The notes under the pieces are model-generated. The model worked only from the letters and a program-made list of their open reading frames with translations. It had not been told where the DNA came from and made no database searches. Below are positions 667 to 43,244 of a stretch of DNA of 45,718 nt, in pieces. Source of the stretch: Nitrospirota bacterium (GTDB taxonomy: Bacteria > Nitrospirota > 9FT-COMBO-42-15 > HDB-SIOI813). Both the position numbers and the translations under genes were made by a program. The DNA lies in assembly GCA_020851375.1 (NCBI GenBank), contig JADZCV010000003.1, forward strand, positions 1 through 45,718, written 5' to 3'. Position 1 is the first letter of the stretch. Every line of letters begins with the position of its first letter.

Positions 667-690
667 AAATAAGGGACAGCGACTATTTAT
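667..690 (+). repeat. RAYT-associated repeat, left copy
   Basis: The core GGGACAGCGACTATTT (672-687 region) is the reverse complement of the copy at 4265-4290 and matches both arms of the palindrome at 8236-8293, with one extra A before the GGG. The stop codon (TAA, 687-689) of the RAYT C-terminal fragment lies inside it. RAYT genes are known to sit between inverted REP-type repeats that they mobilise, so this is read as the left boundary of the RAYT unit. Confidence 0.7.
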
Positions 691-2847: not shown

Positions 2848-3372
2848 CTATTTTTCGTCAGTGCTACTTTTGAACGAATATTCCGTTTCCTCCCATACTT
2901 CATCAGGAAATATATCAAGTGTAATTCTTCTGCGTTGAATGTTCTCATTATTAAATTCCAGAACCGCTTTGTATGGAGTGCTGGTTCCTCCTCTCCCTGC
3001 AATAATGAGCCTGAAACCTCGGTCCGTTTTTTCGAAAGAAGCTTGATAAGGATTCCCCAAATCACTGTAGGCAGACAGGGGAACGAACATCTTTTCGTTT
3101 CCAATTTGTATATTGATTGCGGCTATCACATTTTTGGGCATGATCACTTCACTCCGGCTTTCGAAGTCGCCACCCCACATAAATGCATGCGCGTATGGAT
3201 ATTGCGGCGTGAGTTTTACTGTTCGCATATCTATTTTAACAGCCGTGCCATCCCTTAATTGGCCACCCAATTGAACAACACCTTGAATGAACTCTGCACC
3301 GTTTACAAAAGTAGGCATAACGATTGCCAAAGTGGTGATGATCACATTGCTAAAAAATAAATGTTTCGTCAT
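2848..3372 (-). CDS. Secreted protein, probable immunity partner of the Rhs/Tlde1-like toxin
   Basis: This 174-residue protein begins with a clear signal peptide (MTKHLFFSNVIITTLAIV, cleavage near VNGA-EF), so it should act in the periplasm. The mature part is beta-rich by eye and has no motif I recognise. Its ATG (3370-3372) overlaps the TGA of the upstream toxin gene in an ATGA arrangement, which implies translational coupling. Peptidoglycan-targeting Tlde1 effectors are neutralised by periplasmic immunity proteins encoded next to them, so position, coupling and export all point to an immunity role. That role is inference; no sequence similarity to a known Tldi protein is claimed. Confidence 0.6.
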   Translation of the reverse strand: MTKHLFFSNVIITTLAIVMPTFVNGAEFIQGVVQLGGQLRDGTAVKIDMRTVKLTPQYPYAHAFMWGGDFESRSEVIMPKNVIAAINIQIGNEKMFVPLSAYSDLGNPYQASFEKTDRGFRLIIAGRGGTSTPYKAVLEFNNENIQRRRITLDIFPDEVWEETEYSFKSSTDEK

Positions 3373-4202
3373 GGTACAACCCTCAATTCATTATCTCCAC
3401 TACTGTTTATTTGATTTCTATTATTTCGAGGGGCGACGATGCACCCCTTTGAGGCACTTTGGTTATCTCGGCTGTTATCGCCATGAATCCGGAAGGCGTC
3501 CCTACTATAAGTAGTTGTTCCAGGTCTTGGATATAAATTAAGCGTGGCAGGTCCGAGAACTGGATGATTATATGCTGGACCAATATCATAAATACCTTGT
3601 GGTATCGGGCCAACGTAAGGAACGTTCTGCATCGCAGGGTTATTCAAGCCAGATCCATTGCCCGAATAAATACCATTGCTGCCAAGAGTGGTTCTATTTC
3701 CCGTTTGGTTATCTACATATGTTAACTGATGGATAGATTGAGAATACTCCCAATATAGTCCAAGAGGATCGATTCGATTTATGGGATTATTGCCGGTGTA
3801 AAGGTATAGATTGGTCTCCGTGAGGGGTTTTCCGACACTATCCACGTATCTGACGGATGCATAAACATGCTTCTCATCAAGGATACACGAAAAGAACCGG
3901 CCCTGCCATAAGTGTCCCTTTAGTTTTTTCTTTTTATTAAAATATTGAGAGTATCTCATGTGAAGTGTATTAAATGTCTTTGCAAATGAATTAAGCTCCA
4001 TCGGTACAGCGACAAAATGTACATGATTTGCCATAAGACAATATGCCCATATCTTGAGAGAATATTTTCTTGAATAGTCATTTAACCATTCAAGGTAACG
4101 CAGATAATCTCCTTCCTCCTCAAAGACTTTCTGCTGATAATTACCTCTCTGAGTAATATGATGCGGATATTCTACTGCTACAGGACGTGGTATTCTTGGC
4201 AT
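3369..4202 (-). CDS. Chimera: RAYT N-terminal HUH half fused to Rhs C-terminal Tlde1-like (DUF2778) toxin
   Basis: The 277-residue protein has two unrelated parts. Residues 1-121 are the first half of a RAYT/Y1 transposase, with the MPRIPRPVAVEYPHHITQRG start, the HVH metal motif at 60-62 and LWQGRFFSCILDE at 98-110. At residue about 121 the expected RYxENNPVRAG is replaced by an Rhs repeat-associated core end, NLYLYTGNNPINRIDPLGL (131-149), followed by a 128-residue toxin domain. That domain has GPIPQGIYDIG (198-208), FRIHGD (237-242) and SKGC (251-254), the His and Cys signature of DUF2778 / Tlde1 L,D-transpeptidase-like effectors. The start at 4202 has AGGAG 8 bases upstream; an in-frame ATG at 4229 lacks this support. 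No Rhs shell is present, so it is an orphan Rhs-CT. Confidence 0.75.
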   Translation of the reverse strand: MPRIPRPVAVEYPHHITQRGNYQQKVFEEEGDYLRYLEWLNDYSRKYSLKIWAYCLMANHVHFVAVPMELNSFAKTFNTLHMRYSQYFNKKKKLKGHLWQGRFFSCILDEKHVYASVRYVDSVGKPLTETNLYLYTGNNPINRIDPLGLYWEYSQSIHQLTYVDNQTGNRTTLGSNGIYSGNGSGLNNPAMQNVPYVGPIPQGIYDIGPAYNHPVLGPATLNLYPRPGTTTYSRDAFRIHGDNSRDNQSASKGCIVAPRNNRNQINSSGDNELRVVP

Positions 4203-4264
4203 GTCACAACTCCTATACACAAATCTCAATAATATGAACTATGTGTTTTAACAAAAATATATAC

Positions 4265-4290
4265 TAATTAAATAGTCGCTGTCCCTATTT
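4265..4290 (-). repeat. RAYT-associated repeat, right copy
   Basis: These 26 bases are identical to the right arm region of the palindrome at 8236-8293 and are the inverted counterpart of the copy at 667-690. The copy lies 62 bases upstream of the RAYT-toxin start and overlaps the stop codon of frdD (TAA at 4289-4291). It marks the boundary between the accessory island and the fumarate reductase operon. Confidence 0.75.
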
Positions 4291-5077: not shown

Positions 5078-5102
5078 AATATGTCCATGTTCCTGAGCAC
5101 TC

Positions 5103-5194
5103 GTCATTCCCGCGTAAGCGGGAATCCAGGACTATAGCCTGGTTCTGGATTCCTGCCGGAGTTTACCCCGTACTTGATACTGGGCAGGAATGAC
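5103..5194. repeat. Palindromic GTCATTCC-type repeat between frdB and frdC
   Basis: The element starts GTCATTCCCGCGTAAGCGGG and ends GGGCAGGAATGAC, so its ends are inverted. It contains two nested hairpins. Most of it is the reverse complement of the repeat at 5960-6050 on the other side of frdB. It belongs to the repeat family also seen near 13.9, 18.0, 33.2-33.5 and 43.1 kb. Confidence 0.85.
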
Positions 5195-6062: not shown

Positions 6063-7772
6063 CTAATATTTCCGCTCTTCCGGCGTCCACTTTGTAATTG
6101 TAACCGGTAATTTCTCCATCCTTGGGCCCTGCGGTGTCTGATATGCGAGCGAGTGATGGAGGAAATTATTGTCATCACGGTCTGGATAATCCTCCCTCGC
6201 ATGTCCTCCACGGGACTCTTTTCTGTTGAGCGCCCCGAGCGCAACGACTTCTGCAACATCCAGCATATTATCAAGCTCCATGGCATTAACCAGTTCTGTA
6301 TTAAATACCCTGCTCTGCTGTGTGAGACGTATATTATTAAAACGCTCTTTTAACTTACGGACAGCCTGCACCGCATCTTTGAGTTCCTCTTCTTTTCTGT
6401 ATATACCAACCTTTTCATCCATTGTCTTACGCAAGTCAGACAATATGGCGCCTATACGCTCTTTTCCGCTATTTTTCTTTATATATCGCTTCTCAATCCT
6501 TTCCAACTCCTGCTTTGCCAGAGACTTTAATTTATCTGATGTGGAAGGCCTTGCCTTAGCAACATAATCTGCCGCCGACCTCCCTGCCCTTGCGCCAAAG
6601 ACCATGATCTCAGCTAAGGAATTTGAACCAAGCCTGTTGCCGCCGTGGATGCTGACACAGCCCCCTTCGCCTGCAGCATAAAGACCGTCAATCTGGGTCT
6701 TGCCGTCCTTGTCTGTATGAACGCCGCCCATTGTGTAATGCATGGTGGGCCTGATTGCAATAGGCGCATGCACAGGGTCCATACCGGCAAAGTCTATGCA
6801 AAGCTCCCGCACCATAGGAAGTTTTTCCTCTATCTTGGCCTCACCAAGGTGTCTTAAATCAAGGTGTATGTAAGAACCATACGGCCCGTCAAATCCGCGG
6901 CCTGCCCTGATCTCCTGTATTATTGAACGGGAGACGATATCACGCGGGGCAAGCTCCATCTTCGTAGGCGCATATTTCTCCATGAACCGCTCGCCTTTGT
7001 TATTGAACAGATAACCGCCCTCGCCGCGTGCAGCCTCGGTAATCAGGATTCCTGTCTTGATCAGACCTGACGGATGGAACTGTATAAACTCCATGTCCTT
7101 TAGCGGGGTCCCGGCGCGGTATGCCATGGCCGCACCATCACCAGTCTTGATCCCGGCATTGCTCGAGAAGTAAAAGATCCTTCCAACACCGCCTGTACAA
7201 AGGATGATCGCCTTTGCAGTCAGGATGTGAAATTCTCCCTGCCTTATGTCATATGCCAGCAGTCCGCCAACCCTCCCGTCATCAACAAGTAAGGCAGAGG
7301 CAAACCACTCGTCGTATCTTTTTATTACATCATATTTAAGAGAGGTCTGAAACAGTGCGTGAAGGAGATGGAAGCCTGTCTTATCCGCAGCATGAAGTGT
7401 GCGCTTCCTGCTCATCCCGCCAAACCAGCGGACTGCGATACGGCCGTTATCCTCGCGGTTCCACGGACATCCCCAGCGCTCTACCTGGATAACCTCTTTT
7501 GTCGCATCACGTACAAATGCCTCAACAGCATCCTGGTCTGCAAGGTAGTCACTCCCCTTGATAGTGTCATATGCGTGAAGATCATAGGTGTCATCCTCTT
7601 TCAGTACCGCCGCACAACCGCCTTCTGCTGCAACGGTGTGGCTGCGCATGGGATAGACCTTGGAAACAACCGCTGTTTTTAAGGATGGATTAGACTTGGC
7701 AATTTCTATTGCGGCGCGCAGACCTGCGCCTCCGCCGCCAACTATCAGTATGTCATGTGTAAAGACTTCCAT
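6063..7772 (-). CDS. frdA: Fumarate reductase flavoprotein subunit
   Basis: The 569-residue protein is the catalytic subunit that reduces fumarate with FAD. It has the dinucleotide-binding VGGGGAG at 11-17, the RSHTVAAEGG segment with H45 as the likely covalent FAD attachment site, the IRPTMHYTMGGV substrate region and a C-terminal RGGHAREDYPDRDD. Its ATG overlaps the stop codon of the yjbQ-family gene by one base (TAATG), so the two are probably co-transcribed and coupled. It heads frdABCD. Confidence 0.95.
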   Translation of the reverse strand: MEVFTHDILIVGGGGAGLRAAIEIAKSNPSLKTAVVSKVYPMRSHTVAAEGGCAAVLKEDDTYDLHAYDTIKGSDYLADQDAVEAFVRDATKEVIQVERWGCPWNREDNGRIAVRWFGGMSRKRTLHAADKTGFHLLHALFQTSLKYDVIKRYDEWFASALLVDDGRVGGLLAYDIRQGEFHILTAKAIILCTGGVGRIFYFSSNAGIKTGDGAAMAYRAGTPLKDMEFIQFHPSGLIKTGILITEAARGEGGYLFNNKGERFMEKYAPTKMELAPRDIVSRSIIQEIRAGRGFDGPYGSYIHLDLRHLGEAKIEEKLPMVRELCIDFAGMDPVHAPIAIRPTMHYTMGGVHTDKDGKTQIDGLYAAGEGGCVSIHGGNRLGSNSLAEIMVFGARAGRSAADYVAKARPSTSDKLKSLAKQELERIEKRYIKKNSGKERIGAILSDLRKTMDEKVGIYRKEEELKDAVQAVRKLKERFNNIRLTQQSRVFNTELVNAMELDNMLDVAEVVALGALNRKESRGGHAREDYPDRDDNNFLHHSLAYQTPQGPRMEKLPVTITKWTPEERKY

Positions 7773-8170
7773 TATCCTTCTATGACCTTTACCTGTGCCT
7801 TGCGCTCTCTTGGCCCATCGAACTCACAGAAGAATATTGATTGCCATGTGCCAAGGGCCGGCTCGCCCTTATCAATCATTATATGTACCGAAGAGCCAAC
7901 TATACTTGTCTTTATGTGAGCTGCAGAGTTGCCTTCAGCATGCATATAACCGCTCTCCAGCGGTATTAAATCATCAAGCTTATCAATAAAGTCCCTCATA
8001 ACGTCCGGATCCGCCCCTTCATTTATTGTTATTCCAGCAGTAGTATGAGGAACGAATATGGTGCATATGCCTTCTCTTACGCCAAGGTCATTAATCACTC
8101 TTCTAACCTCATTGGTTATGTCAATTAGTTCTATCTGCTTTTTTGATTTTATCGCAAGAATTTTAATCAT
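7772..8170 (-). CDS. YjbQ / UPF0047 family protein
   Basis: This 132-residue protein matches the YjbQ (UPF0047) family in length and motifs: VPHTTAGITINEGADPDV (about 46-63), YMHAEGNSAAHIK (80-92) and GTWQSIFFCEFDGPRERK near the end. Members fold as small beta-rich oligomers with a conserved His/Glu site; some have weak thiamine-phosphate synthase activity in vitro, and the real role is unsettled. It is the first gene ahead of frdA, joined by a one-base stop/start overlap. Nothing in the sequence ties it functionally to fumarate reduction. Confidence 0.88.
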   Translation of the reverse strand: MIKILAIKSKKQIELIDITNEVRRVINDLGVREGICTIFVPHTTAGITINEGADPDVMRDFIDKLDDLIPLESGYMHAEGNSAAHIKTSIVGSSVHIMIDKGEPALGTWQSIFFCEFDGPRERKAQVKVIEG

Positions 8171-8235
8171 ATATTTCTGACTGACAATTTGTCAAGAAAT
8201 TTTTACAGACACATTTTGGGCCTTGATAAAAATAG

Positions 8236-8293
8236 GGATAAAAATAGGGACAGCGACTATTTAATTAAATAGTCGCTGTCCCTATTTTTATCC
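8236..8293. repeat. Perfect 58-bp palindrome made of two RAYT-associated repeats
   Basis: The two 29-base arms are exact reverse complements around the centre TTAATTAA (8261-8268). Each arm contains GGGACAGCGACTATTT, the same repeat that bounds the RAYT island at 667-690 and 4265-4290. Two REP units in inverted orientation form a REPIN-like element, mobilised in trans by a RAYT. A short direct repeat (ATAAAAATAGGG) precedes the left arm. It lies just after the gcvPB stop, so its transcript would form a strong hairpin and may end or stabilise the gcv mRNA. Confidence 0.85.
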
Positions 8294-8294
8294 G

Positions 8295-9746
8295 CTACTT
8301 TTGCTTTATCCAGCGCAGGTTCGGCTTTTTTACTGCCATGGCCTCATCAAGACGCCTGACTATCTTCGTATGCGGGGCGCCCTTTACCAACTCAGGATTG
8401 TCTTCAGCCTCTTTCGCAATAGATATCATTGCATCACAAAATGAGTCGAGTGTCTCCCTCGGCTCAGTCTCAGTAGGCTCAATCATAATCGCCTCTTCAA
8501 CGATAAGGGGGAAGTTTACAGTAGGAGGATGGAATCCGTAATCCTGAAGCCGCTTGGCCACGTCCCATGAGTGGACGCCCTTAGCCTTTTGATATTTTGC
8601 TGAAAAGACGCACTCGTGCATGCATGGGACATTGTTGGGTATATAGTAATAATCCTTCAGTCGCTTCTTGATATAGTTGGCATTAAGAACCGCATTTTCG
8701 CTGACCTCTTTCAGCCCTTTGGCGCCCATTCTTTTAATATAGGCATATGCCCTGACAAGTACTCCGAAGTTTCCATAGAAAGAGTGAACAGTCCCAACAC
8801 TCTGCGGCCGGTTATAGTCCAGGTAATATCTGTCGCCATCCTTTTCCACTGTCGGTACAGGTATGAAGGGTGTCAGTTTCTCTGAAACACCGATCGGACC
8901 GGCGCCAGGGCCTCCGCCGCCATGTGGAGTAGAAAAGGTCTTGTGAAGGTTGAAGTGTACGACATCAAATCCCATATCACCCGGCCTAACAATTCCAAGC
9001 AAGGCATTAAGGTTAGCGCCATCCATATACATAAGGGCGCCGGCGTCATGGACCAGCCCTGATATTTCCGCAATATCCTTTTCAAAAAGGCCCAGAGTAT
9101 TCGGATTCGTCAGCATCACTGCTGCAGTCTCTGTATCAAGGACCTTCTTCAACTCTTCGACATCAACAAGCCCTTCCTTACTCGATTTTATTACAACCGC
9201 CTCATAACCGACAAGGGCCGCACTCGCAGGGTTTGTCCCGTGGGCAGAATCAGGGATTATGACCTTGTGCCTTGGATTCCCGTGGGCCTCATGATAAGCC
9301 CTTATAACGAGCAGACCAGTTAGCTCACCATGAGCGCCGGCTACAGGTTGTAGAGAGACACTGTCAACACCGCCTATCTCTTTGAGCAATCCCTCCAACT
9401 CATACATCATCCTAAGAGCCCCCTGAGACAACTCCTCAGGCTGAAGCGGATGTGCATTAATAAGACCCGGTGTCTTCGCCGCCTCTTCATTCACCTTGGG
9501 ATTATATTTCATTGTGCAGGAGCCGAGCGGGTAGAAGCCAAGGTCAACACCGTAGTTTAACCTTGAGAGATTTGTGAAATGACGAATCAACTCAATTTCA
9601 CTCACTTCAGGCAAGCCAACCGGCGTATCCTTAATCAATTCTTTTGGAAGCAGACTCTGCAGTTCTGATTCACGCACATCCAGCGCAGGCAGGGAATATG
9701 CCCTGCGGCCCGGTGCGCCTTTTTTAAATATGAGTTGTTCTGACAT
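8295..9746 (-). CDS. gcvPB: Glycine dehydrogenase (decarboxylating) subunit 2, P-protein beta part
   Basis: The 483-residue protein is the C-terminal half of the split P-protein of the glycine cleavage system. With GcvPA it decarboxylates glycine with PLP and passes the aminomethyl group to lipoyl-GcvH. The PLP lysine lies in [19 protein letters not shown]; the N-terminus has [12 protein letters not shown] and [13 protein letters not shown], both typical. I start at 9746 (MSEQL) with GGTGG upstream; the frame is open to 9770. It follows gcvPA after a 105-base spacer filled with C/G-rich hairpins, and its end touches the 58-bp palindrome. Confidence 0.95.
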
Positions 9747-9775
9747 CTTTCGTTTCCACCGTAAAATCACGATTC

Positions 9776-13734: not shown

Positions 13735-14003
13735 TCATGAGTCTCAGGCTCACCAGGGTTCATGAAAACGTCATTACCACTCCCCGCTTAAATCATGCGG
13801 GGACAGTTTTCGTGGAAAAGACGGGTATACGGGGATTTTCGGACGAACCATCATGAGCCTCAGGCTCACCAGGGTTCATGAAAACGTCATTCCCGCGTAA
13901 GCGGGAATCCAGACCGAGGCCTGGTTCTGGATTCCAACTCCCCGCTTAAATCCTGCGGGGACAGGTTCCGTGGGAATGACGGGTATACGTGGATTTTCGG
14001 ATG
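13735..14003. repeat. Tandem, diverged repeat units carrying a GTCATTCC palindrome
   Basis: Two units begin with CATGAG(T/C)CTCAGGCTCACC at 13736 and 13852 and end with GGGTATACG(G/T)GGATTTTCGGA. The second unit contains a full palindrome (GTCATTCCCGCG... to ...GGGAATGAC, about 13887-13980); the first has a decayed one. The region fills the space between the SugE-like gene and prmA, and its last bases supply the ribosome-binding region of prmA. Confidence 0.75.
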
Positions 14004-17972: not shown

Positions 17973-17991
17973 ATATCCAGGCAACTTCAAC

Positions 17992-18059
17992 GTCATTCCT
18001 GCGAAAGCAGGAATCCAGAACTACACATGATTCTGGATTCCCACTTTCGTGGGAATGAC
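17992..18059. repeat. Palindromic GTCATTCC-type repeat
   Basis: It starts GTCATTCCTGCGAAAGCAGG and ends CACTTTCGTGGGAATGAC, with two internal hairpins. It lies between the zinc dehydrogenase and the DUF488 remnant. Confidence 0.85.
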
Positions 18060-18115
18060 GGGAGGAAACACTGTAGCAAGCTACGATGAGATAGAAGTTA
18101 TCAGAAGCGTGAGAT

Positions 18116-33183: not shown

Positions 33184-33189
33184 ATTTCA

Positions 33190-33588
33190 CTCGAAAATAC
33201 TCCTAAGTACCCGTCATTCCCACGGAACCTGTCCCAGCATGATTTTTCACCCGTCATTCCCACGCAAGTGGGAATCCAGAACCAGACCCCAGTCTGGATT
33301 CCCGCTTACGCGGGAATGACGTTTTTCATGACCCCTTGCGAGCCCAGAGCTGTGAGCTTGTCGAACAGTCGAAGGGCTCATGACGGTTCACCTGAAAATG
33401 CTTCTATTCACCCGTCATTCCCACGGAACCTGTCCCAGCATGATTTTTCACCCGTCATTCCCACACAAGTGGGAATCCAGAACCAGGCCCCGGCCTGGAT
33501 TCCCGCTTACGCGGGAATAACGTTTTTCATGACCCCTGGCGAGCCCGGAGCGGTGAGCTTGTCGAACAGTCGAAGGGCTCATGACAGC
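33190..33588. repeat. Tandem pair of about 200-bp repeats with GTCATTCC palindromes
   Basis: Two units (about 33190-33388 and 33389-33588) each contain a short partial palindrome, CCCAGCATGATTTTTCACCC, a full palindrome (GTCATTCCCAC..., to GCGGGAAT(G/A)AC) and the ending GAGCTTGTCGAACAGTCGAA. They differ at scattered bases. They fill the space between hemL and the convergent yajQ end. No gene is seen here on either strand. Confidence 0.85.
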
Positions 33589-43014: not shown

Positions 43015-43121
43015 GCGCACCACCCCCTTCACCTGAAAATCCCCGTTATTAACCACAAAGACACAAAGGGCACAAAGAATTATATTTTATATACACCATC
43101 CAAAAATGCTCCTATGTACCC

Positions 43122-43216
43122 GTCATTCCCACGGAACCTGTCCCCGCAGGATTTAAGCGGGGAGTGGGAATCCAGAATCAGGCCCCGTTCTGGATTCCCG
43201 CTTACGCGGGAATGAC
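43122..43216. repeat. Palindromic GTCATTCC-type repeat
   Basis: It starts GTCATTCCCACGGAACCTGT and ends CGCTTACGCGGGAATGAC, with a CCCCGCAGGATTTAAGCGGG inner hairpin shared with the 13.9-kb copy. It lies between pdxA and the CDF gene. CACAAAGACACAAAGGGCAC at about 43056-43075 is a further common repeat motif. Confidence 0.85.
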
Positions 43217-43244
43217 GTTAACTACACAGTAAATGACTTTGTGT

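Follow-up and report, generated by a model that had tools for sequence, protein, structure and literature searches.

A perfect 58-bp palindrome directly behind a gcvPB gene of a Nitrospirota bacterium is best explained as a non-autonomous mobile hairpin, in which two copies of a terminal inverted repeat linked to a RAYT form a REPIN-like doublet. Together with the mechanism proposed below, this reading is held with a probability of about 0.8. The copy number of the repeat, the pairing of its copies, the ends it has in common with a RAYT, the differences in occupancy, and the covariation of its flanks are observed directly. The stretch of DNA that was analysed (the window) comprises 45,718 nucleotides and belongs to a MAG of 2.5 Mb (G000; 49 contigs, 98% complete).

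Structure, setting and copies of the palindrome

The palindrome at positions 8236-8293 (inverted-repeat listing and RNA fold) consists of two arms of 29 nt each (8236-8264 and 8265-8293), which are 100% complementary and meet without intervening nucleotides at the centre TTAATTAA. Inside 11-nt outer arms (GGATAAAAATA / TATTTTTATCC) lie two exact copies of a 16-nt REP core, the left one, GGGACAGCGACTATTT, on the forward strand at 8247-8262 and the right, inverted one on the reverse strand at 8267-8282. The identical core marks both ends of a RAYT island in the window (673-688, forward strand, and 4270-4285, reverse strand; exact matches). The gene gcvPB (8295-9770, reverse strand) ends with a stop codon at 8295-8297, 1 nt from the start of the palindrome, and is followed downstream of the palindrome and on the same strand by yjbQ/UPF0047 (7772-8170); both genes were assigned by ORF list and domain matches. 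An earlier note on this DNA had described the palindrome as perfect, its arms as containing the boundary repeat of the RAYT island, and its position as directly after gcvPB, all of which proved correct. Toward yjbQ, the repeat is lengthened by a 12-nt tandem duplication of the outer arm and the start of the core (8225-8248, forward strand; by reading), in which GATAAAAATAGG occurs twice, at 8225-8236 and 8237-8248. A promoter-like sequence, TTGACA-18-TATGAT, overlaps the start of yjbQ at 8166-8195; three such sites occur in the region against 2.3 in shuffles, and in several relatives a similar sequence was seen by eye ahead of yjbQ or of whichever gene comes next after gcvPB.

The RNA fold of 8222-8300 on the reverse strand has a free energy of -48.4 kcal/mol (z -14.57), and none of 200 shuffles was equally stable. 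This stability, the start of the palindrome right behind the gcvPB stop codon, and the A/T-rich arms, which resemble A- and T-tracts, would also suit a common transcription terminator of gcvPB, or a hairpin at the 3' end of its mRNA, maintained by selection and with complementary flanks that are compensatory RNA changes. This explanation is considered improbable. A scan for intrinsic terminators between 7700 and 8700 found none, which counts against it to the extent that a long AT-armed stem does not evade such a scan. Rfam searches of the whole window at the gathering threshold gave no matches. The repeat is not confined to gcvPB: a 17-mer from the core has five matches with up to 3 mismatches in the window, compared with a mean of 0.14 and a maximum of 2 in 100 shuffles, and the identical 16-mer occurs many times in the genome.

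The genome-wide count proposed in the earlier note revealed 40 exact copies of GGGACAGCGACTATTT and three more with one mismatch, while the reversed core pattern, used as a control, had no match in this genome. The palindrome is thus no single-copy artefact. By reading, 32 of the 40 exact cores are arranged as 16 close inverted pairs, the two cores of a pair being 4-33 nt apart. Two of the remaining cores are the ends of the RAYT island, and one of the six others belongs to a pair (L337) whose loop now has 207 bases including another repeat. None of the 16 paired elements is spanned by an ORF of at least 90 aa. Eight of them lie between tandem genes, six between convergent and one between divergent genes, and one between tRNA-Pro and tRNA-Arg, as read from ORFs and corrected by eye against ortholog alignments; the location of 14 of the 16 between tandem or convergent genes is a further point in favour of a terminator, and a secondary role of the hairpin in termination or at the mRNA level may exist beside mobility.

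Tandem duplications of an arm are found on 3 of 32 sides in the window's own genome compared with 0.48 expected (11 of 1000 permutations), on 1 of 24 sides in the same-genus genome G002, on none of 18 sides in G001, G005 and G008, and on 1 of 70 sides (35 elements) in Omnitrophota. As a general rule such duplication was rejected, the signal being weak. At the loci L013, L143 and L144, the outer arm or its tandem copy seems, by reading, to supply the in-frame stop codon of the neighbouring gene, with GTT AAA TAG or ATT AAA TAG at the respective edges.

Other repeats were noticed as well. A second family in the window (CGTCATTCC and GGGAATCCAG; 5098-5139, 13881-13954, 17987-18068, 33186-33587, and 43088-43219) begins with CGTC like CGTC-tagged REPs and includes, at 33186-33587, a tandem duplication of 201 bp. 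A further repeat of comparable type, GGGGACAGATTTATTT, has nine exact and eight one-mismatch copies in the own genome with two close inverted pairs (G000 C10:19543-19590 and C32:12605-12651), and the copy on C10 occupies a site at which G002 bears the GGGACAGCGACTATTT family.

Occupancy of orthologous sites and the RAYT helper

In the gap between gcvPB and yjbQ, the core is absent from the two same-genus relatives G001 and G002 and from G005. The comparison with orthologous gaps suggested by the earlier note thus yielded sites without the palindrome, which argues against a terminator of gcvPB under selection. A terminator conserved at this site was likewise not seen in the family relatives compared, among which L070-L072 were also tested. 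By eye, the gap of G002 holds a different repeat. Across all 16 sites, 22 of 26 comparisons within the genus show no core at the orthologous position; in these comparisons, L218 was aligned through its right flank alone, and one site is represented by two G001 loci, L206 and L207. This occupancy would fit hairpins that were mobile, putatively in trans through a RAYT. Among the 22 core-less stretches, L071 has a 3-mismatch match outside the gap, and L214 and L221 look by eye like decayed copies, with a best match of 4 mismatches. The other four stretches contain two intact pairs (L204 and L208) and two single cores (L217 and L222). No core within 3 mismatches was found in 17 orthologous stretches from other genera of the family. 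In total, 15 of 99 genomes, the own genome included, contain the core with at most one mismatch, with 18-43 matches in each of three genomes of this genus and 1-6 in the others.

The recent origin or conversion proposed earlier for the perfect arms is a reasonable possibility: most copies are missing from orthologous sites within the genus, yet two intact pairs sit at orthologous sites in another species. In favour of a terminator, terminator-like hairpins were seen by eye at two orthologous sites. An empty and a filled site are represented by the pair G001 L149 and G002 L320. The empty site of L141 shows, by eye, a 9-bp flanking direct repeat and filler, unlike a standard IS200/IS605 insertion. 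Target-site duplication was rejected as the source of the arms: these are inverted and not direct, and the 9-bp direct repeat was seen at L141 alone.

The RAYT island of the window contains a broken gene. Its N-terminal part of 121 aa, with an HVHF motif by reading, is encoded at 3840-4202 on the reverse strand and continues into an Rhs-like linker and then a Tlde1 domain (domain searches and protein alignment), and the separated C-terminal part of the same RAYT lies at 702-1001 on the reverse strand (protein search). At 3369-4229, the N-terminal half is joined in frame to the linker, which resembles an Rhs core, and to the Tlde1 domain. Tlde1 domains are known from type VI effectors directed against bacteria. 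The ORF after this fusion (2848-3372, 174 aa) has no NCBIfam match and is perhaps an immunity gene. A DDE transposase of 507 aa (DUF772/DDE_Tnp_1_6; 1210-2733) lies within the island between the RAYT halves.

The earlier note took the palindrome to suggest a working transposase elsewhere in the genome and proposed a check for intact RAYT genes with the same flanks. In this genome, a working transposase found no support. A Y1_Tnp family search of the genome matched only the broken RAYT of the window, and a search with the open RAYT from Omnitrophota described below retrieved only the two halves of this gene; a gap in the assembly is possible. As the helper is broken in the own genome, its hairpin copies are probably immobile now. 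In G002, a RAYT remnant with stops lies between exact inverted cores (C63, L301), and in G008 the C-terminal part of a RAYT lies beside a core with one mismatch (C99). A related RAYT on C24 of G002 was rejected as helper: it has no cores of its own with up to 3 mismatches in a 5.6-kb stretch, the only cores there being those of a REPIN about 1.8 kb away.

An intact-looking helper was found in another phylum. A scan of genome contigs for exact doublets with 3-33 nt between the cores, from which records of the own genome or of very close ones may be absent, gave 42 stretches, 34 from Omnitrophota/Omnitrophica and 8 from Nitrospirae by title, and 20 of the 42 come from the Omnitrophota MAG G099. 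This MAG encodes an open RAYT gene (L295, 1181-1969; 223-aa frame) between exact inverted GGGACAGCGACTATTT cores whose starts are 773 nt apart. Its best NCBIfam match is REP_Tyr_transpos with 70.9 bits at a cut-off of 80, and Pfam (E up to 0.1) reports Y1_Tnp and a weak DUF4921 match only. The N-terminal piece of the window RAYT is 64% identical to this protein over 121 aa. MAGs of both Nitrospirota and Omnitrophota are thus now known to contain a RAYT-linked repeat family with an identical 16-base core; the helper that looks intact and has these ends lies in the Omnitrophota MAG, and those seen with these ends in the Nitrospirota genomes searched are broken or partial. The multi-copy inverted pairs, the ends in common with the island, and the Omnitrophota RAYT between exact cores lend good support to the earlier description of the palindrome as a REPIN-like partner of a RAYT.

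In the proposed mechanism, the RAYT would have recognised the core GGGACAGCGACTATTT on single-stranded DNA, and full elements would have borne the RAYT gene between two inverted cores. Gene-less doublets, presumably mobilised by the RAYT, would have spread to intergenic sites, chiefly just after stop codons, before the helper was broken and activity presumably ceased. Complementary flanks would have arisen from one flank copied across the hairpin, either at insertion or later by template switching during replication. Once transcribed, the hairpin at gcvPB may terminate the mRNA or protect it.

Complementary flanks outside the core

Pairing of the copies extends beyond the core. All 28 core-matched copies from two species have complementary bases at the first 8 flanking positions, although the bases themselves differ from locus to locus. 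In the own genome (16 elements), all 128 cells of outer positions 1-8 are paired, and in 25 of them both sides differ from the commonest base; in G002 (12 elements), the respective numbers are 96 of 96 and 12. Permutation of the right flanks attained full pairing of positions 1-8 in none of 5000 trials in either genome. These statistics are restricted to pairs whose two arms bear the identical core, of A type or C type, and G007 L165 (outer 0) was left out. The complete lack of unpaired cells among the 224 outer cells of these intact-core copies counts against RNA-structure selection, which should leave broken intermediates; some copies with mismatched cores are broken.

Further outward, pairing depends on the genome. 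At positions 9-14, it reaches 0.354 in the own genome compared with 0.316 after permutation (1078 of 5000), which is not above permutation, and 0.403 compared with 0.259 in G002 (39 of 5000), which is. Paired runs extend to 13-14 bases, and their outer parts are locus-specific. In five G002 copies with the core GGGACAGCGCCTATTT, position 8 varies (A, G, T or C) and is paired every time; positions 8-9 of these copies are paired in 10 of 10 cases, a value that 2 of 120 permutations attained. G001, G005 and G008 show weaker pairing at positions 1-8 (9 elements; 0.833 compared with 0.737 permuted, 287 of 5000). In Omnitrophota (36 distinct elements), it is 0.628 compared with 0.619 permuted, with a mean paired run of 3.44 compared with 2.75 (32 of 5000), so that this control is not perfectly flat.

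Seven mismatched-core pairs among the matches listed (G000 C44 and C20; G002 C47, C72 and C97; G001 C59 and C95) have 1, 5, 8, 3, 1, 8 and 6 of 8 outer pairs, respectively; full pairing is thus retained in two of these seven. More pairs decayed in this way may be present beyond the matches listed. Mirrored flanks therefore mostly accompany intact cores, and part of the pattern could be explained by recent insertion with the arms carried along.

Complementary flanks might also mark the target, if the elements had inserted into the centres of pre-existing palindromes. At L011 and L026, G002 has, by eye, terminator-like hairpins with similar A-tract and T-tract arms at the same place, so that the arms at these two loci may predate insertion. 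As a general explanation this is unlikely: by eye, no such palindrome exists at the empty sites of L149 (in G002), L141 (in G000 and G001) and L015 (in G001), and the Omnitrophota copies have the same core without the 8-base mirroring. Guide pairing as in IS608, with the outer arm being part of the element and selecting targets by base pairing, would produce complementary flanks as well and is regarded as very unlikely. The paired runs of 13-14 bases with their locus-specific outer parts exceed a tetranucleotide guide, and the variable yet always paired position 8 next to the single core GGGACAGCGCCTATTT does not agree with it either.

A shared core with differing and yet always complementary flanks points to an event that took place during insertion or later. 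The best fit to these sequences, albeit unproven, is that one flank was copied into the other; foldback copying at insertion and template switching during replication are both candidates, and the data do not separate them. It is put forward only tentatively that every hairpin landing or persisting in this Nitrospirota genus copies host flank to its opposite side, with the palindrome growing outward into locus-specific sequence. If true, inverted template-switch copying in wild bacteria would have left a natural record in this repeat family, and outward-growing hairpins would sometimes alter how neighbouring genes end. Mirrored flanks also give sequence-level access to the question of what maintains hairpin arms in bacteria: selection, insertion chemistry, or template-switch mutation. 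In the parts of the literature surveyed, mirrored outer flanks are not reported, which does not prove that no such report exists.

Comparison with known systems

Judged by sequence, the repeats, linked to a RAYT and arranged as REPINs, make up a new family and are neither GTAG nor CGTC REPs. As in REPINs, two inverted REPs form one hairpin and doublets prevail (32 of 40 exact cores in 16 pairs), and RAYT genes are flanked by the same REP (the window island with cores at 673 and 4270, and Omnitrophota L295). The GTAG tag of classical REPs is not conserved: in the core or up to 15 nt outward from it, GTAG is found on 1 of 32 sides in the own genome, 2 of 24 in G002, and 0 of 72 in Omnitrophota. 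CGTC is found on none of the 32, 24 and 72 sides, respectively.

Closer in motif are RAYT-linked families of terminal inverted repeats, or TIRtrons with TIRYT transposases, which have been described by Di Nocera (2013, PMC3733652). According to the available part of that paper, they resemble the present family in that a Y1 transposase gene is enclosed by inverted repeats that have no relation to GTAG REPs, in that some repeats are dispersed and dimeric, and in the motif GGGGWSAS, which is common to only some TIRs and is close to the (A/G)GGGACAG of the present family. Three of 16 own elements and one of 12 in G002 bear the full motif; the others differ at its first G, and 13 of the 16 own copies are unlike TIRtrons in lacking this G. 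Mirrored locus-specific flanks are not described in the part of PMC3733652 available. TIRYT subclass 2.1 is marked by a C-terminal helix-turn-helix (PMC6006769, available in part), which the related L295 RAYT lacks in Pfam searches.

The REPINs of P. fluorescens SBW25 (Bertels and Rainey 2011, PMC3116915) are likewise, in the portion of the paper available, inverted doublets of a dominant 16-mer that form hairpins, lie in intergenic regions, are RAYT-linked and leave singlets as remnants, and compensatory changes have been reported in their hairpins. SBW25 has 430 doublets, far more than the 16 exact ones of the present genome, in which the spacer is shorter (4-33 nt between cores), the helper was found only broken, and covariation reaches outward into flanking DNA. 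Perfect stems with apparent compensatory changes are also produced by reverse-complement copying in the template-switch correction of (quasi)palindromes, as far as the available text of PMC8794818 describes it. In the present case, unlike there, this is a candidate pattern on a mobile hairpin family that is known from sequence alone.
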